Below, one piece after another: positions 2,951 through 25,242 of a DNA stretch of 25,946 nucleotides; the first letter of the stretch is position 1; every line of letters starts with the position of its first letter. The notes under the pieces were generated by a model. That model was given only the letters and a program-made list of their open reading frames with translations, ran no database searches and had not been told where the DNA came from. Source of the DNA: a virus; IMG/VR virus record IMGVR_UViG_3300046003_002002, positions 1 to 25,946 of that record. One strand, 5' to 3'. Both the position numbers and the translations under genes were made by a program.

Positions 2951-4807
2951 TTACTTAACCTCACACGCTCCACCGGCACATGCTAACTCACCACTTAGGT
3001 CTGTCATATCTTCGGTTTCAATAACTTTAGATAAGTCAACATCACTTAATGTTTTTAATAGTTCTTCATATCTTTCTTTTGTACAATCTTCAAATGGTGC
3101 TTGAATATAAGTTCCACCATCGTAAGGTAATACCGAAAGTCCATTATAGAACTCTTTGTTTTCCCACATCCATTCACCAACTGCTTTCCACTCATGCTCT
3201 CTAATAGATATTGTTGCAGATACATTATGAGAATTATTTCCACTTCTATGTCCAGGTTTAATCCACTCACCATGTACTTTTTTAACTCTTTCTAATAATT
3301 GAATTGGAGATTCAGTTCTAAAAATTGCAGTATCAGGTGCCTTTTGTGGAATACCAATTACTGCAGTATCATGTGGTCTGAAATATTCATCTTCAATTAA
3401 TTCAGGATGATTGATTAATAAGTGTGAATACATTGATTCATTCTTACCAACTCTTACTCTACGAATGTAATAATCATTATGCCATGCGTGAATACCACTA
3501 CTTGTTCCTAATGTTAATGATGTTGTTCCTGCCGGTTTAACAGTTGTAGTTCTTGCTGAAACATTTATTTTTAATATTTCTGCTACCCTTCTATTTTCTG
3601 TCTTAACTACTTTTGCAGATTCTTTCATATCCAATTTCAAAACTGCACCACTACCAATACCAGTCATAGATACACCAATCAATGCATCCTTTTCGGTTGT
3701 TCTCTGCCAAATTGGGCGAAGGTAATGGAAATCAGTATACCCTGCTTGCAATGTTCCAATGAATGATGCTGCCTTTACTCTTGCATTTAAATCATCCTGG
3801 TCAACTACATCACTTACATTCACTTCACATAAGTTACAGAATTGGAAAGGTCTTAATGCAATCTCACAACATGGATTAGTTCCCCAATCTTTGTCATTTG
3901 ATAAGTAGATACCAGGCTCACCTGCTCCACTTGCTTCAATTCTTTTCCACAAATCCATAAAGTAATCCTTTGTGATTTTGTGTCTCATTAATACCGCTGA
4001 GTTATTTGCTCTACCTCTTTGTGGATTTGTTTCCCACCATGCTCCACTCTTACAACTAATCATTTGTTCGTCACTTGCTGAGAACAAACAAATTAATGCT
4101 GCTCTACGAATACCACCTGCCAACACTGCATCTGCAATATGGCAAACAATATCATGCACTTCAATTGGTTTTAATTTCTCACCATCTTTTTTAGCATCTA
4201 ATATACCTTCAATCTTAATTAAACATTCTTTTAGGGGTTGAGGTCCAGGTGCTTTACCACCACTTGTAATTAATCGTGCACCCTTTGCTCTAATATCTCT
4301 AAAATCAAATACTGGTTTTGAACCACCAAAGAAATATGATTTTACTAATACTGAAATTGAATCCGCCCATCCTTCGATAGAATCACCGATAAGAAATCTA
4401 CGTGTCTTATCTACATTTGGTTTTCTAATTTCAGGCAATGCATCAACATGATGTGATTGTACTGAATATCCTACACCAGTTCCACCTAAAAGTAAGAACA
4501 TAATTTCAGAGAATACTCTCCAATCATCAATCGGTGCGAATGCACAATTGTAAATTCTATTTGGACTAATTTCAATCGGTTTACCTGCGAACTGCATTGA
4601 ACGCATTGAAGGTAAAACTTTCTTATCATAAACGAACTTATAGTTCTCTCTGATTTCGTCTTCTAATTGAGGATACGTTTTTATATGCATATCCATATTT
4701 CTTGTAACCAACTCTTGCCATGTCTCTCTTCTTTTTAATTCTGGCTTATATTTTGCGTACTTCATGTACACCGTAATTTCTGATAGGATTCTTGTCGAAA
4801 TGTCCAT
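2951..4807 (-). CDS. nrdJ: Adenosylcobalamin-dependent class II ribonucleotide reductase
   Basis: A 618-aa single-subunit reductase of the RTPR type (the Lactobacillus enzyme is about 739 aa). It reduces ribonucleotides to deoxyribonucleotides in the cytosol using coenzyme B12. All expected cysteines are present: Cys88 in YNCAF (equivalent of C119), NPCCEI at 311-316 with thiyl Cys313 and Glu315 (C408/E410), Cys324 in FCNL (C419; the 11-residue spacing is preserved), and the C-terminal shuttle pair CAGGAC (C731/C736). GGTGVGYSVQ near 108-117 and the TTVKPAGTTSLTLGTSSG stretch are family hallmarks. A class II enzyme works with or without oxygen but depends on host cobalamin. No NrdB-type or NrdG partner is needed. 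It heads the downstream nucleotide/accessory unit; a thioredoxin follows. No intein or intron interrupts it. Confidence 0.95.
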   Translation of the reverse strand: MDISTRILSEITVYMKYAKYKPELKRRETWQELVTRNMDMHIKTYPQLEDEIRENYKFVYDKKVLPSMRSMQFAGKPIEISPNRIYNCAFAPIDDWRVFSEIMFLLLGGTGVGYSVQSHHVDALPEIRKPNVDKTRRFLIGDSIEGWADSISVLVKSYFFGGSKPVFDFRDIRAKGARLITSGGKAPGPQPLKECLIKIEGILDAKKDGEKLKPIEVHDIVCHIADAVLAGGIRRAALICLFSASDEQMISCKSGAWWETNPQRGRANNSAVLMRHKITKDYFMDLWKRIEASGAGEPGIYLSNDKDWGTNPCCEIALRPFQFCNLCEVNVSDVVDQDDLNARVKAASFIGTLQAGYTDFHYLRPIWQRTTEKDALIGVSMTGIGSGAVLKLDMKESAKVVKTENRRVAEILKINVSARTTTVKPAGTTSLTLGTSSGIHAWHNDYYIRRVRVGKNESMYSHLLINHPELIEDEYFRPHDTAVIGIPQKAPDTAIFRTESPIQLLERVKKVHGEWIKPGHRSGNNSHNVSATISIREHEWKAVGEWMWENKEFYNGLSVLPYDGGTYIQAPFEDCTKERYEELLKTLSDVDLSKVIETEDMTDLSGELACAGGACEVK

Positions 4808-6509: not shown

Positions 6510-7538
6510 TTATTTATGTAATTTTGCGAAAGTAGTTTGAATCCAGCTATTAACATCACCAAATGAATTAATAACCTTCATTCCCATTGCTTTCTTTATG
6601 AATCCTAATTTATCCAATTTTGCTGAATTATCCAAATATTTTTGGTTAATTGTTAATTTTTTATTGGTTGGTATTTCCGGATCTGATAATTGCATTAGTT
6701 TATAGTTCCTTTCAATTATCTTTTTACCATCTAAAATCTTATCATAGAATTTATTTTCACTCTTGCGATTTTCACATAGAATAAACATATCATCTATTGT
6801 AATTTCTTTTTCTTCCACCACCTCAGGGAATCTCTTAATAATAGTTTTAAGACCACACCCAGCAATACCATCAATGTTATCGGACTTATCACCATCAAGA
6901 GTACGATAAACCATAAAGTTTGCAGGATGAACACCATACTCTGATACAACAAGGTTGGTATCGTATAATTTTTTCTTTGTAGGCGAATAAACTTTAACTC
7001 TTTCATTTACTAATTGTAGGAAATCTTTATCAGCACTCATAATAACTGCTGATTCATCCTCTTTTAAAAGTTGTGATGCAATATAGCCCATAACATCATC
7101 TGCTTCAATACTATCATATAGCATAATTTCCACAGGTAGATACTCTAGGAGTTCGATTAACCCAATCATTTGTCGTTTCATAGATACACCTTCTTCTTCT
7201 TTGTTCATCAAATCTGAGTATGCTCTATTCACTCTAAAACGATTGTTTCCTCGATTCTCTTTATAACCACTATATAAATCCTTTCTACTTTTAGAACCAC
7301 CCTTACCATCGAATACAATTATACAACGAGTTGCATTATATTCTCTGATAGCATAACCGATACCTTTTAATGTACCTACTATACCGCCAATGTGGTCACC
7401 ATTATCATCCATTGTAGGATTTACCGTCCAGCTTCGTATAAAAGTATTAAGACCATCAACAATTAATACTTTTTCTTTTCCTAATTGCTGATAGTCTTTT
7501 TCTACTTCGTTTAGTAACTTTTTATATGTTTCGTTCAT
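6510..7538 (-). CDS. RNase H / FEN-type 5'-3' exonuclease (T4 Rnh-like)
   Basis: A 342-aa PIN/FEN-like nuclease. The metal-binding acidic residues are in order: VLIVDGLN (Asp28), IVFDGKGG (Asp77), SIEADDVMGY (Glu145, Asp147, Asp148), MSADKDFLQL (Asp170, Asp172), and LDGDKSDNIDGIAGCG (215-228). The last leads into the helix-hairpin-helix DNA-binding region. Length is close to T4 RNase H (305 aa). The likely role is removal of RNA primers and flaps from lagging-strand fragments beside the gp32-like and gp41-like proteins encoded in the same operon. It starts at the ATG at 7538, with a weak AAAGG upstream, 22 bases after the recA stop. Confidence 0.92.
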   Translation of the reverse strand: MNETYKKLLNEVEKDYQQLGKEKVLIVDGLNTFIRSWTVNPTMDDNGDHIGGIVGTLKGIGYAIREYNATRCIIVFDGKGGSKSRKDLYSGYKENRGNNRFRVNRAYSDLMNKEEEGVSMKRQMIGLIELLEYLPVEIMLYDSIEADDVMGYIASQLLKEDESAVIMSADKDFLQLVNERVKVYSPTKKKLYDTNLVVSEYGVHPANFMVYRTLDGDKSDNIDGIAGCGLKTIIKRFPEVVEEKEITIDDMFILCENRKSENKFYDKILDGKKIIERNYKLMQLSDPEIPTNKKLTINQKYLDNSAKLDKLGFIKKAMGMKVINSFGDVNSWIQTTFAKLHK

Positions 7539-8687: not shown

Positions 8688-9338
8688 TTATGAATTAAAT
8701 AAGTCATCAAATGCTGCTGCCACATCCACTTTTGGTGCCGGGGCTGCTGTCTCGTCATCATCCCAAGGTAAATCATTAACTAATCCACTTCCACCGATTT
8801 CAGGTGCAGCATCTTTAGTTACTAATTGTTCTTCAACTTTTTTTGGTTGAGGTGCTAATGTTTGTTGAGAAACAGAAGGAGTTGGATTTTCTTCTTCAAG
8901 CACTGCCGTTGGGTTTAACCAATTCTCTAATACCGTCTTTAATTCTGCATAAGATAATTCTGAATAGATATCAGTAATATCAGTTTGCTCATCTAACAAT
9001 TTAGTTGCGATTGTAGAATTGTCATGTAATAAAGATACATTTGGTTTTACTCTGATTCTGGTTTCAGGATATGTTTTACCTGCTTCCTCTACAATTTCAA
9101 TAACAATATCTCTACCATTTGTTTCATCGGTAATATCACCGTAATCAGGATCAGCTACGATAGCTAAAATCTCTTGATACACAGTCTTACCAAATCCCCA
9201 AAATTTAACACCTTCGTTTTCTTGACCTCTGATTACCACAGGTGCGAAAGTTCCAGGTTTGGTTTTCCACAATGAGTCCGTTTTCTTCGAAGTGTTTTGC
9301 AACGAATTAAGACGTTGCTTGATTGCATTAATGTTCAT
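8688..9338 (-). CDS. gp32-like single-stranded DNA-binding protein, internally shortened
   Basis: A 216-aa protein (T4 gp32 is 301 aa). A basic N-terminal segment (MNINAIKQRL...SLWKTK, residues 1-27) resembles the cooperativity domain. KFWGFGKTVYQEILAIVADPDYGDITDETNGRD (in pieces at about 45-77) matches the second half of the gp32 OB-fold core. A Gln/Pro-rich linker leads to an acidic tail (LPWDDDE, then AAAFDDLFNS) like the protein-interaction tail of gp32. Between residues 29 and 30 the sequence goes directly from SLWKTKPG to TFAPVVIRG; in related phage proteins I expect about 70-80 residues there, including the first OB strands and the T4 zinc site. No CxxC or zinc-binding motif is present. 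ATG at 9338. Confidence 0.85.
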   Translation of the reverse strand: MNINAIKQRLNSLQNTSKKTDSLWKTKPGTFAPVVIRGQENEGVKFWGFGKTVYQEILAIVADPDYGDITDETNGRDIVIEIVEEAGKTYPETRIRVKPNVSLLHDNSTIATKLLDEQTDITDIYSELSYAELKTVLENWLNPTAVLEEENPTPSVSQQTLAPQPKKVEEQLVTKDAAPEIGGSGLVNDLPWDDDETAAPAPKVDVAAAFDDLFNS

Positions 9339-10930: not shown

Positions 10931-11368
10931 TTAAATTCCCAAATAATTACGAAGTTTTTTAAAAGTATCTAATTCTCTTTCATTTGTAGTATCTAAATCA
11001 ATATAAAATTCAGTAGGTGCTTCGTAGTTAGAAACATGGAAACTTTCTCTACCTCTTTCATTTGTAGTATGAACATAAATTTCTATTAGGTTCTCACCCA
11101 TTTCTAATTTGAATTTATCTCTTTGGTCTTTGTATGGTGAAACCAATGATACCACTACGTTGTAGCCTTTGTGTTGTAAGAACTTAGCCAATGTTTGTGC
11201 ATTAGTTATATTCTTTTTGCGACCTTCTTCTGAGTAATCTTTGTTTTGAAATACATCTCTAATATCATCACCATCAATAGTGATAACTTTATGTATTAAA
11301 TGAGCTTCCATCCAATTAGCCATAGTAGTTTTTCCACTACCAGGTTGTCCTGTAAACCAATATATCAT
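10931..11368 (-). CDS. Adenylylsulfate-kinase-like (CysC-type) kinase, shortened
   Basis: A 145-aa P-loop kinase of the CysC family (usual length about 200). Walker A GQPGSGKT is at residues 7-14, TIDGDDIRD at 30-38, YSEEGRKKNI at 45-54, and VSPYKDQRD at about 76-84, the segment that holds the reactive Ser in APS kinases. The lid region, which in true APS kinases carries the GLYKKARAGxIxxFTGID stretch, is reduced here to a few residues (NERGRESFHV) before NYEAP. The substrate may therefore not be adenylylsulfate. No ATP sulfurylase gene is nearby. It lies six bases after the 132-aa gene and precedes the nucleotidyltransferase. Confidence 0.85.
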   Translation of the reverse strand: MIYWFTGQPGSGKTTMANWMEAHLIHKVITIDGDDIRDVFQNKDYSEEGRKKNITNAQTLAKFLQHKGYNVVVSLVSPYKDQRDKFKLEMGENLIEIYVHTTNERGRESFHVSNYEAPTEFYIDLDTTNERELDTFKKLRNYLGI

Positions 11369-21009: not shown

Positions 21010-23964
21010 TTAAGTAGGTTGTCTTTTGTTACTAATTGCTAATCCTGTGTTCATTTTCTTACCATCTATATACACCGCAATCTTACCATCGCTCATATCT
21101 TTTCTTAATCCCATAATTTCTTCTAATAATTTAGTAGAAGTATCTTCTTTACCACCACCGGCACCGGAACCACCACCCATCAGTGCCATTAAAATACCAC
21201 CACCGATTGCTAATCCTGCTAATACAGGAAGTGCAGCGATACCCATTTGTCCAATCATTGCTAATGAAAGTGCCAATGCACTAAATGCTAATGCTAATCC
21301 TAATATTTGAGGAACTATTGCTATTAATCCCGTTACATATGTTTGTATTCCCCCTAACGTTGCACCCATTGCTCCTGCTCCTGCTGCTAATATACCCAAT
21401 GCAGTTCCAAATACTAACAATGCTAATGCACCCATCATAATTGGTCCGGCAAATGTTCCAAATATTGCAAGTCCAATTCCTAATGGTATTAATGCTAATC
21501 CAAATAATGCCAATTTACCAACATCTAATGCTGCAAAACTTGCTGTGAAACTTTCCATTGGTCCCGCAACATAACTTAATCCAACACCTAATACCATCAT
21601 TGCAAGTCCTAATCCAGCTAATGCCAATAACCCAGCACCAAATACAATAGCACCCGGTCCCATCATTAAGGCACCTAAAGCAAATGCGGCTCCGGCGAAT
21701 ATTACCAAACCAGCTGCAGCTGCTAATACTGAATCAATTTTTACGTTTGCTATTAAACTCATAGCAAATGCAAATGGAATCAATGCTACTCCCAATACTG
21801 CTAATGCAATAGCTCCTTTAATGATTTGCTTTTCCGCCTTTGCCATGGCAGCAGCTATTCCAGCTAAAATAATTAATGCACCCAATCCCATCACAACATC
21901 TGGCCATTTTACGGTAGCAAACTCTTGAAATGCTTTTGCTGCTACAAATAACGCTGCTGATAATATCAATAATGCAACCGCTCCTTTTATTAAATCGCCA
22001 CTTTTTATTTTACCAAACTTACTTGCTTGTCCTGCCTGGTCTCCACCTGCTGCCGCCGGAGGTGGTGTTGCTGCTGCGGCTGGTGTTTTATTTGCTTTAA
22101 ATCTTTTATCAGGTAATCCGGCTTTTGTTAATGGTCCTACCATTGAAGTACCTGCATCTAATCCGGATTGTGCTGCTTTTAAACCTAACATTTTAGCAAT
22201 TGCTTTACCAATCCAACTCACCATACTTCCAAGTCCACTAAGTATTCCGTTAATTGGTTTCATCATAAAACTCATTGCCTTTGTTAAAGCAGGTATTTTT
22301 ATTCCCATTTGACTAAGATGTGCTCCGAATTGTGCACCCGATAAAACCAATCCACCCATTCCTTTTAATGCCTTTCCTGCTATTGAATCACCAATAACAT
22401 GCATTAATGTTGAAATTCTTTCGTATTGTTGTGCCGCCACACCATGCATACCTTTTAATGTTTCTTCATGTGCTACCATCTTCTGCATTTCTGCATTTGA
22501 AACACCTAATGCTTTTGCTACCGCTTGTCTTTGGTAGTAATCCATTTTATTATATTCACTTATACCACCAATTGCTTCCAATCCCGCTTCCATACTCTCT
22601 GCGATTTTACCATTGTATGCTAACTCTCTCGCCTTTCCTAAGTTTAAATCTCTACCTAATAATACAGATGCTTCCATTTCATCAGCTACCGATGTTTGGT
22701 AATCTAATAAATGGTCTGCCATTTTTTCGGCTGTTCCTAATCCTATACCTAATTTAGCTGCTGCTACCGCTGCTTCTGCAATATTTTTACCACCCTCTTG
22801 AGTAAATTTAGCCATAAATTCACTATTATTAGCAATATCTTTCATTGCTTCACCTGGCATTACACCATTTGCGGCTGATAAGGCTGATACATATTTAAGT
22901 GTATTTTGCCCCGTCATCCAACTTTGTCCTTGTAGTTCACCGAATGCCGTTGATAAATATGCTGCTTGTTCACCACTTAATTTATAATGGTATGCTAACA
23001 TCGCTGCATCGGCTGCCATACCATTTGATATATGACTAGTATCTCCTAACTCTTTACCTAATTCTTTTACTGCCTCTGCACTTTCTTGACTTAATATTCC
23101 AGCAAGTAAGATTTGAGATTTAAATCCCATAGCTTGTGTTAAGCTATATCCCATCTCTCTACCAACTTCGTGAAATTTATGTGCTAATTCACCTGCTCCA
23201 AACAAAGCCATTCCAATCATATTTCTAGTAGAACTAAAAAATACTTCTGTAGCGGTTGTTATTTTTTTAAAAGTTTTATTTATACCTTCTAAATCTTCAC
23301 CCAATTCTTCGTATAATTCTTTTGTTTCTTTTGATAGATTTGCAAATTTGCCGGCATCTTCTTTCATAGTTGATAATGCATCAATTTGTTGATACATACT
23401 ACTAATTATTGCTCTATCTATATCTGCTTTATCACTGGTTTCATCAAATAATCCTTCCGAAATTGTAAGTTGAGATTTCATTGCAGCAATTTGATTATCA
23501 ATTTCTTGACTTTTTGTTGCAATTGCTGCCGAATCTTCTTTATTTAATCCCGCTAATTCTGCAATTGATTGTAAAGTAGTTGCATATGATTTTGATGCTT
23601 CCTCAAATCCATCTTTTTGATTATTAGATGCTAATCCAATACTATCCGCTAAATTAACTCCAAATTTAACAGAACTTTTTAAATGATGTTTTAATTTTTC
23701 CTGCAGTTCAGACATACTATTAATCGTCTCTTCCGCTGCTTCGTAGTTTTGTTTTAATTCTTTAAGAGCTGTATTTTCTGCATTTACTAACTCAACTACT
23801 TTTTTTAATTGTTTAACTTTGCTAGCTAATAATGACGCATCTGCTTTAGCTATAGCATTACCTTCTTCTAATGTTTTGCGTTCTTTTTCACGTAACTCCA
23901 AAACTTCAGCAACTAATGCTTTTCTAGCTTTCTCTAATCCAGTATCATTTGGGTTATTAGCCAT
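21010..23964 (-). CDS. Tail tape measure protein
   Basis: A 984-aa protein, the largest here. Residues 1-125 are charged and helical with coiled-coil character (ELREKERKTLEEGNAIAK). Residues 250-560 are a helical domain with Met/Ala-rich segments. A low-complexity Ala/Pro linker (about 630-650) precedes a long Gly/Ala/Leu-rich hydrophobic region (about 660-930) with many candidate membrane helices. The C-terminus GKIAVYIDGKKMNTGL is typical of tape measure proteins. It sets tail length (roughly 150 nm at 1.5 angstrom per residue, by family rule) and is ejected with the DNA. The gene starts four bases after the 69-aa gene. Confidence 0.9.
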   Translation of the reverse strand: MANNPNDTGLEKARKALVAEVLELREKERKTLEEGNAIAKADASLLASKVKQLKKVVELVNAENTALKELKQNYEAAEETINSMSELQEKLKHHLKSSVKFGVNLADSIGLASNNQKDGFEEASKSYATTLQSIAELAGLNKEDSAAIATKSQEIDNQIAAMKSQLTISEGLFDETSDKADIDRAIISSMYQQIDALSTMKEDAGKFANLSKETKELYEELGEDLEGINKTFKKITTATEVFFSSTRNMIGMALFGAGELAHKFHEVGREMGYSLTQAMGFKSQILLAGILSQESAEAVKELGKELGDTSHISNGMAADAAMLAYHYKLSGEQAAYLSTAFGELQGQSWMTGQNTLKYVSALSAANGVMPGEAMKDIANNSEFMAKFTQEGGKNIAEAAVAAAKLGIGLGTAEKMADHLLDYQTSVADEMEASVLLGRDLNLGKARELAYNGKIAESMEAGLEAIGGISEYNKMDYYQRQAVAKALGVSNAEMQKMVAHEETLKGMHGVAAQQYERISTLMHVIGDSIAGKALKGMGGLVLSGAQFGAHLSQMGIKIPALTKAMSFMMKPINGILSGLGSMVSWIGKAIAKMLGLKAAQSGLDAGTSMVGPLTKAGLPDKRFKANKTPAAAATPPPAAAGGDQAGQASKFGKIKSGDLIKGAVALLILSAALFVAAKAFQEFATVKWPDVVMGLGALIILAGIAAAMAKAEKQIIKGAIALAVLGVALIPFAFAMSLIANVKIDSVLAAAAGLVIFAGAAFALGALMMGPGAIVFGAGLLALAGLGLAMMVLGVGLSYVAGPMESFTASFAALDVGKLALFGLALIPLGIGLAIFGTFAGPIMMGALALLVFGTALGILAAGAGAMGATLGGIQTYVTGLIAIVPQILGLALAFSALALSLAMIGQMGIAALPVLAGLAIGGGILMALMGGGSGAGGGKEDTSTKLLEEIMGLRKDMSDGKIAVYIDGKKMNTGLAISNKRQPT

Positions 23965-23967
23965 TTA

Positions 23968-24177
23968 TTATTGTCCGTGATATTTTTTCATGTATTTATC
24001 AAAATCACTCCAATCATTTTTCATTTTTTCCATTTTCTTAGCCACTTCTGGATGCACACCTGCCTTTTCAGCTGCTTTGATATATCTATCTGCTACACCC
24101 CTTTGTAATGATTTAAAAAAATTATCTACAATTGAAGTTAATAATCCTTCAGAAATTTGTTCTTTATTATTTTCCAT
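23968..24177 (-). CDS. Small helical tail-module protein, 69 aa
   Basis: Unrecognised. It is helical and basic in the second half: LLTSIVDNFFKSLQRGVADRYIKAAEKAG, in pieces, then VAKKMEKMKNDWSDFDKYMKKY. It follows a terminator and a GATATTTATA element and immediately precedes the tape measure gene. That position suggests a tail assembly factor, but no motif proves it. Confidence 0.6.
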   Translation of the reverse strand: MENNKEQISEGLLTSIVDNFFKSLQRGVADRYIKAAEKAGVHPEVAKKMEKMKNDWSDFDKYMKKYHGQ

Positions 24178-24215: not shown

Positions 24216-24245
24216 AAAGTTAGGAGTTTATCTTCTCCTAACTTT
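24216..24245 (-). terminator. Intrinsic terminator overlapping the stop codon of the chaperone-like ORF
   Basis: An 11-base-pair perfect stem (AAAGTTAGGAG with CTCCTAACTTT) and an eight-base loop at 24227-24234, followed on the minus strand by TTGTTTTAT. The last codons of the overlapping ORF (K-V-R-R-R) and its stop lie inside the hairpin. Confidence 0.85.
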
Positions 24246-24497
24246 ACTATTTGTTTTTTGTATTTGTTCGTTTTCTTTCTTTTTTATTTCTACTAATTGA
24301 TGCACATACATTTTTCGTATATGTAGTGGTAAATTATACACATCAGAGAATGTAAATCCTCCTCCACCTTGAAAAACCAAAAAGAATAGTTCTTCATAAA
24401 GTGATTTTGTATAATTAGGCGGTAGGGTAAAAAAAGCTAATCCCAAAGGGGATATCAAGTGCCTCCGACTCACCCGTAACTTCTGATACAAAATCAT
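24228..24497 (-). CDS. Overlapping +1/-2-frame ORF, candidate frameshift extension (tail assembly chaperone-like)
   Basis: An 89-codon frame from ATG 24497 that overlaps the gp26-like gene by 83 bases. The first ~22 codons are just the shifted reading of that gene. From FTLPPNYTKSLYEELF on the sequence looks like real protein: a hydrophobic helix, a GGGGF turn, SDVYNLPLHIRKMYVHQL and a charged Lys/Glu tail. This pattern resembles short proteins encoded between baseplate and tape measure genes in other myoviruses. It could be made by internal initiation or by ribosomal slippage on a seven-T run (24429-24435) 12 bases before the upstream stop. Size and place match the 'T' extension of lambda-type gpG/gpGT chaperones. 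Confidence 0.65.
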   Translation of the reverse strand: MILYQKLRVSRRHLISPLGLAFFTLPPNYTKSLYEELFFLVFQGGGGFTFSDVYNLPLHIRKMYVHQLVEIKKKENEQIQKTNSKVRRR

Positions 24498-25242
24498 ATT
24501 TCATATTTAAATCGGGAGAAAGTTCTTTAAAGAAATTTCTCAATGCCTTTGTATCACCTGCTAACATATTTGGTACAAACTTATTAATAAATCCTCTATC
24601 GCTATTACCATCTACTTCTACAATCATATATTTAAATCTTGTAGTAACATCAGTACCTACACTCTTGCCTTTTGTTAATCTTTCCATCGCTTGAGTTTCT
24701 TGTGTGATATCTTTTTCATCTTTATGTGTAAGTAATCTAACTATTAATTTCTTTTTAGAAACCGGTAGAGTTAACTCATATCTATTTTGTGAATTTAATC
24801 TACTATAATCAATATCTTTGGTTTGGATTGCAGATAAATCAATTGTTACTTTTTGTTTTTCACCACTAAAAGGGTCAGTTATTTCTACATCATAATCAGG
24901 ACCATATCCTAACATACGAGTTGCTAAATAAACTGCATTGATATCACCGATTACCAAATCATCTACGTTTACACCAGGTTGAACTACTACTGATTCTAAT
25001 AATTTTTGTAGAACGATACCTTTGTTAATTAAGTTTCTATCAGCTAAGATATCTTCTTCTCTCGCTGTCATATACTTAATTTCTAATGTTCCTTTACTCA
25101 ATGGATTTGATTCTGCGTATACTTTACCTTCGGATGGTAATGATATAACTTGCGTTGGAAAATCAAATGTTGGAGCTGCTTGCTGTGTTTGTTGAGGTTG
25201 TACTGGCGTTGTACCTCTTTGAATGTTTATGTTTTCTTCCAT
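24415..25242 (-). CDS. T4 baseplate gp26/gp51-type protein
   Basis: A 275-aa protein of the T4-type baseplate family. After a Gln/Pro-rich N-terminus (residues 11-24), the conserved block begins: VISLPSEGKVYAESNPLSKG (33-52), LEIKYMTAREEDILADRNL, INKGIVLQKLLESVVV, and DLVIGDINAVYLATRMLGYG. The rest is alpha/beta and ends FGISFFYPTA. In T4 the related gp26 and gp51 act in hub assembly rather than in the final virion. The gene precedes the overlapping ORF and tape measure gene. The 3' end contains a seven-T run that may allow frameshifting. Confidence 0.82.
   Translation of the reverse strand: MEENINIQRGTTPVQPQQTQQAAPTFDFPTQVISLPSEGKVYAESNPLSKGTLEIKYMTAREEDILADRNLINKGIVLQKLLESVVVQPGVNVDDLVIGDINAVYLATRMLGYGPDYDVEITDPFSGEKQKVTIDLSAIQTKDIDYSRLNSQNRYELTLPVSKKKLIVRLLTHKDEKDITQETQAMERLTKGKSVGTDVTTRFKYMIVEVDGNSDRGFINKFVPNMLAGDTKALRNFFKELSPDLNMKYDFVSEVTGESEALDIPFGISFFYPTA

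Follow-up and report, generated by a model that had tools for sequence, protein, structure and literature searches.

A short and a long form of the tail assembly chaperone of T4-type phages are very probably made here from a single locus by programmed +1 ribosomal frameshifting. The locus lies on the minus strand of the window, by which we mean the whole stretch of 25,946 nucleotides that was analysed (IMG/VR virus record IMGVR_UViG_3300046003_002002). Most ribosomes would stop at the TAA at 24415 and release a short gp26-like chaperone, and a minority, carrying tRNA-Phe in the P site of UUU_UUU_U, would slip +1 and add a 66-residue helical gp51-like domain; in relatives the slipping P-site tRNA would sometimes be tRNA-Leu (CUU). 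By analogy with lambda gpG and gpGT, several short copies would coat the tape measure protein and a few long copies would recruit tube or hub components.

The gp26-like gene and its extension

The gp26-like ORF (24415..25242, minus strand, 275 aa), the proposed short or G-like form, overlaps a second minus-strand ORF of 89 aa (24228-24497), which has its own ATG at 24497. The overlap spans exactly 24415-24497, as the first-pass annotation had placed it. Across the junction, frame 0 reads GGG ATT AGC TTT TTT TAC CCT ACC GCC TAA and the second frame reads GCT TTT TTT ACC CTA CCG, a relation that corresponds to +1 or -2. The proposed shift site, TTT TTT T at 24429..24435, is kept as TTTTTTT across the near clade and would allow P-site tRNA-Phe to re-pair at +1. 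The frame-0 stop TAA (24415..24417) ends the short product 6 codons past the start of the shift site; the distance from the last T of the run to this stop is 11 nt, close to the 12 bases given earlier. The +1-frame extension, which begins TLPPNYTKSLYEEL, covers 66 codons (24231..24428) up to a stop at 24228-24230, and the fusion of the gp26-like protein with the extension has a length of 337 aa.

The genes are ordered sheath, tube (PF06841), a 161-aa ORF, gp26, extension, a 69-aa ORF (23968..24177, minus strand) and tape measure, which places the gp26/extension pair between the tube and tape measure genes with one extra ORF on each side. The part from sheath through tube (PF06841, 1.5e-11) and the 161-aa ORF to gp26 was read in the near-identical locus L002, and the tape measure gene was read in the window. 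The latter (21010..23964, minus strand, 984 aa), downstream of the gp26/extension pair, matches the annotated tape measure protein of the Flavobacterium isolate immuto (E 4e-16) and its counterpart in the Microcystis isolate Mel-JY01 (2e-25). Mel-JY01 also has an ORF of similar size at the position of the 69-aa ORF. Elsewhere in the window, on the strand that carries the tail genes, we observed ribonucleotide reductase, exonuclease, single-strand DNA binding protein-like and kinase-like matches (2951-4807, 6510-7538, 8688-9338 and 10931-11368).

The gp26-like protein matched PF12322 (5.4e-8, 33.2 bits, above the curated cut-off of 24.5) and phrog_150 (1.4e-14). The gp26 part and the extension were folded separately. 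The best PDB match of the predicted gp26 model (pLDDT 92) was the HK97 tail assembly chaperone 2ob9 over residues 17-113 (Z 4.9, the next row at 2.4); this match is modest, with Z below 8 and a Foldseek E of 1.9, and falls on the predicted class, a tail assembly chaperone. The extension was predicted to form three helices (H4-20, H27-31 and H35-65). A PDB search with this model gave no usable match, and tblastn of the extension alone against the phage collection gave no match. Compared with phrog_634 (gp51, hub assembly catalyst), the extension scored 0.1 in the window and at best 0.0016 among 24 relatives, 4 of which had a weak match. The Pfam family DUF6760 was matched at 0.052 in the window, below the curated cut-off, and at best at 1.4e-4 among the 24 relatives.

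Conservation of the frame relation and of the slip site

Homologous loci were collected in a first scan of 80 loci and in four more scans with distant queries, which yielded L090-L348. The sampling is metagenomic and its groups are set by the query that retrieved them, hence the locus counts given here are not counts of independent events. Where the gp26 stop could be read (341 loci), the +1 frame stays open for 120 nt or more beyond it in 327 loci and the other frame in 40; several of the loci that fail for the +1 frame are contig ends. All readable near relatives keep the T-run, nearly all of them with a +1 continuation of about 64-73 residues, and the +1 relation is found in 13 of 13 complete loci from genome-collection contigs, all of them MAG records (Flavobacteriales, Winogradskyella, Halobacteriovorax, Methylococcaceae, WOR-3 and others). 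The dN/dS of the extension is 0.14, equal to that of gp26, whereas the other two frames over the same segment give 1.27 and 1.36, with 3.5 and 7.8 stops. Of 272 unique junctions, 271 have their frame-0 stop 5-9 codons away from the first slip codon. In one locus, L115, gp51 lies at -1, for which an indel of one base past the shift site is the probable cause, and this locus was set aside.

Together these data show that hundreds of distantly related T4-like viruses retain the +1 arrangement, in which two overlapping ORFs have a conserved frame relation at a site close to where the first one stops, and they support the candidate programmed frameshift proposed in the first-pass annotation. The true second segment starts at the run (24428) and not at the ATG at 24497. 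A sequencing error in a homopolymer, splitting what is really one in-frame gene, might be suspected at a site that in the window is itself a homopolymer. We regard this as vanishingly improbable, since the shift is kept by hundreds of independent contigs, including sites with no homopolymer, and by the isolate genomes Flavobacterium immuto, Bacillus SP-15 and Microcystis Mel-JY01.

The commonest slip classes are TTT TTT TGG (173), TTT TTT TAC (86), TTT CTT TGG (39) and TTC TTT TGG (17), followed by TTT CTA TGG (4), CTT TTT TGG (3), TTC TTT CGT (3) and singletons. What the main classes share is a codon for Phe or Leu, in first or second place (TTT_T, TTT_C or CTT_T), on which the P-site tRNA can re-pair at +1. 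Alignment of homologous loci, the check suggested at the outset, showed that the run varies (T7, T8, TTTCTTT, TTCTTTT, TTTCTAT) and that the frame relation is unbroken in the lineages that retain the site. On a gp26 tree of 280 sequences, built without the junction columns, interrupted runs occur in 66 sequences with the same +1 relation as the T7 sites; T7 and interrupted runs replaced one another 11 times or more, and the frame relation was kept except for rare losses.

The interrupted runs argue against both -2 slippage and transcriptional slippage as the general mechanism. In the latter, RNA polymerase would drop or add a U at the T7 run, aided by a stem-loop in the nascent RNA as in Roseiflexus IS630, and ordinary translation would then give the fusion. 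Such slippage would fit the conservation of T7 in the near clade and the terminator-like anatomy of a stem-loop followed by a U-run, and stem-loop dependent slippage is described in a review (PMC5009743); the same review, however, puts highly efficient slippage at runs of 9, and the 66 interrupted runs (TTTCTTTGG, TTCTTTTGG, TTTCTATGG), mostly with at most 4 consecutive T, are still followed by the +1 frame, so that we consider this route improbable. The first-pass annotation had left the slip as +1 or -2. A -2 ribosomal shift, known from phage Mu and arteriviruses (PMC5009743), would give one extra Phe, and in T7 sites the A-site tRNA can indeed re-pair at -2. Re-pairing of the P-site tRNA at -2 is poor even in T7 sites, though, and A-site re-pairing fails at TTT CTT TGG, TTC TTT TGG and TTT CTA TGG, where one or both of the two codons allow +1; the -2 half of the proposal is therefore very unlikely and the +1 half stands. 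As the interrupted sites offer neither good -2 re-pairing nor a homopolymer for polymerase slippage, we infer from the junction sequences that the shift is probably made by the ribosome rather than by RNA polymerase.

A separate small gp51 gene, initiated independently or by coupling to gp26, would account for the fusion frame with no shift at all. The 89-aa ORF of the window starts with an ATG, and in L259, L264, Cygsa01, Vibrio YC and S-SSM7 the gp51 start codon lies at or just past the gp26 stop. Against this, the ATG at 24497 is not conserved, with only 11 of 78 near relatives having an ATG upstream of the run in the extension frame. Among the 272 unique junctions, that frame has no upstream ATG in 199 and none of ATG, GTG or TTG before the run in 87, and in L019, L064 and L076 a second-frame stop stands directly before the run. 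An internal start would also drop the conserved FTLP/FGL residues, which begin at the run. Separate initiation is thus most unlikely as the reading of the window, and +1 frameshifting remains the preferred one. Homologues in which the second ORF has its own conserved start and no overlap had been named beforehand as what would speak against a frameshift, and these are confined to the rare L259 and L264 and to some distant relatives (L352 and L452, in which gp51 has its own start and no slip site). In L259 and L264 the slip site is lost and gp51 is a separate ORF with its own ATG, which suggests a natural replacement in which the covalent link to gp26 is not always needed and the gp51 domain can work unlinked.

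Selected elements upstream of the shift site

Two elements precede the shift site on the minus strand of the window: a Shine-Dalgarno-like GGAGG (24462..24466), 26 nt upstream, and a stem-loop, AUCCC-CUUU-GGGAU (24440..24453), 4 nt upstream. In the near clade GGAGG is present in 61 of 61 sequences, compared with 3.1 expected from synonymous resampling; the codon preceding GAG GCN varies there in its amino acid and always ends in G, which keeps GGAGG invariant. The motif is enriched in other sampling groups too, mostly 23-27 nt from the slip site, and is missing from part of the relatives (in one group 13 of 63 have it). The 24 nt leading up to the site form a small stem-loop whose stability exceeds that of synonymous resampling in 5 of 5 sampling groups. 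In the near clade its energy is -4.80 versus -2.96 kcal/mol after resampling, whereas random gene windows differ little (-1.25 versus -1.07). The stem sequence differs by group (AUCCC/GGGAU, ACCG/CGGU, ACAUCC/GGAUGU), and 2-4 nt separate the 3' end of the stem-loop from the first slip codon. Both GGAGG and the stem-loop are under selection at synonymous sites.

Given this selection, GGAGG and the small stem-loop are candidate stimulators of the shift. The end of the stem-loop occupies roughly the place that the Shine-Dalgarno helix has at the prfB +1 site, which suggests, by analogy, that the stem-loop may stand in for that helix. GGAGG, at 23-26 nt, stands much further off than the stimulatory Shine-Dalgarno sequences known so far (in prfB the distance to the slippery codon is 3 nt), and Shine-Dalgarno-like sites are seldom used by Bacteroidia, a likely host group (PMC8710568); both points speak against such a role for this motif. 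RNAalifold found no downstream RNA structure past the run. Two other functions considered for GGAGG were rejected: pairing with a CCUNCC past the run, since immuto has GGAGG without that partner, and service as the start site of the second ORF, since there is no suitably spaced start codon and stops follow in many relatives.

T4, cyanophages and known recoding systems

In cyanophage-type loci gp26 ends with NNT TTT TTC, a canonical -1 heptamer, in 76 of 76 unique junctions, and gp51 invariably follows at -1, with a nearby ATG in 70 of the 76 and no start codon in 5. The isolates Syn30 (gp51 unannotated and no ATG near), S-CRM01 and HTVC008M fit this pattern; the isolates Vibrio YC, K369 and Cygsa01 have a coupled start only. 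A -1 frameshift between gp26 and gp51 in cyanophages and Pelagibacter phages is likely from these junctions, and no earlier report of a gp26-gp51 frameshift was found in the open-licence literature. Across L349, L354-L433 and L448-L450, from cyanophages and Pelagibacter phages, we observed gp26 ending in the -1 heptamer (NNT TTT TTC or TTT) with gp51 at -1.

Profile comparisons, each E-value being that of a single comparison, connect these proteins with T4. Positions 26-338 of the +1 fusion and 5-304 of the cyanophage -1 fusion form one collinear alignment (E 1.8e-16) in which the two FF junctions coincide, and this ties the extension to gp51 much more strongly than the phrog_634 match does. 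The alignment of T4 gp51 with the -1 fusion runs through the junction of the latter (8.5e-12). T4 gp26 in turn aligns with T4 gp51 (3.9e-16; BLASTP 2e-6) and stops at the point at which the extension starts. T4 gp26 and gp51 appear to be short and long paralogues, gp51 carrying the extra C-terminal domain (L088:3803-5229). Both figure as hub assembly chaperones in PMC3004832, where gp51 is given as required and absent from the virion, and the G-T shift is described as conserved in long-tailed phages except T4 (review, Atkins et al. 2016, PMC5009743). The first-pass remark that T4-type systems are not known for such a shift is correct for T4 itself, whose genes 26 and 51 lie on opposite strands, and does not hold for the wider group.

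On balance we favour, with less confidence than in the +1 shift itself, a wider reading in which the T4 superfamily is no exception to the tail-chaperone rule, gp26 being the short (G-like) form, gp26 plus gp51 the long (GT-like) form, and the +1 type being driven from upstream by the stem-loop and the distant GGAGG. Four routes would lead to the pair: the +1 shift described here; in cyanophages and Pelagibacter phages, a -1 shift at U_UUU_UUC; in T4, a pair of paralogues (gp26 and an in-frame fused gp51); and in a few lineages, a coupled separate gp51; the short/long reading would account for all four arrangements. Four points go beyond the first-pass annotation: the identity of the extension as gp51, GGAGG and the stem-loop upstream of the site, the cyanophage -1 counterpart, and the T4 paralogue pair. 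The tail-chaperone frameshift is textbook recoding with T4 as its exception, and the +1, -1 and paralogue versions would, if true, close that gap and explain the old puzzle of gp51, needed for hub assembly and absent from the virion. The slip sites would also form a natural series for +1 shifting by tRNA-Phe and tRNA-Leu with upstream, not downstream, stimulators. The annotation of published genomes would change: we observed the gp51 part missed or mis-called in immuto (immuto35A_232) and SP-15 (SP15_046) and left as gaps in LIS04 and Syn30 (L082, L084, L086, L449).

Like lambda gpG/gpGT, the window locus lies between the tube and tape measure genes, would give a short and a C-terminally extended form from one gene, and has its shift near the end of the first ORF, with a gp26 N-domain modestly resembling HK97 2ob9. 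It differs from lambda in a +1 instead of a -1 shift, a larger first protein of the T4-superfamily PF12322, and selected elements upstream. The cyanophage (Kyanoviridae) junction has the same gene pair, the same FF position and a collinear fusion alignment; it differs in that gp51 is at -1 behind an invariant heptamer, mostly with an ATG. In T4, gp51 likewise consists of the gp26 family plus an extra C-terminal domain before which gp26 stops, but the two are separate genes on opposite strands with no frameshift. With prfB, whose +1 sites use CTTT and, rarely, poly-T with tRNA-Phe (PMC12421855), an exchange that the slip classes here mirror, the locus has in common +1 slippage of tRNA-Leu or tRNA-Phe on CTTT or TTTT and a purine-rich upstream element. 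The prfB combination of an A-site stop with a Shine-Dalgarno-like element 3 nt ahead of the slippery codon was not found at window-type sites: the A site holds TAC or TGG, GGAGG is 23-26 nt away instead of 3, and the stem-loop is the nearest element. Listeria phage PSA (+1), Mu (-2) and HSTV-2 (likely +1) are similar as rare recoding other than -1 in phage tail or capsid genes (PMC5009743); they use other slip sites (CCC_UGA in Listeria phage tail genes), and the likeness is one of recoding type.
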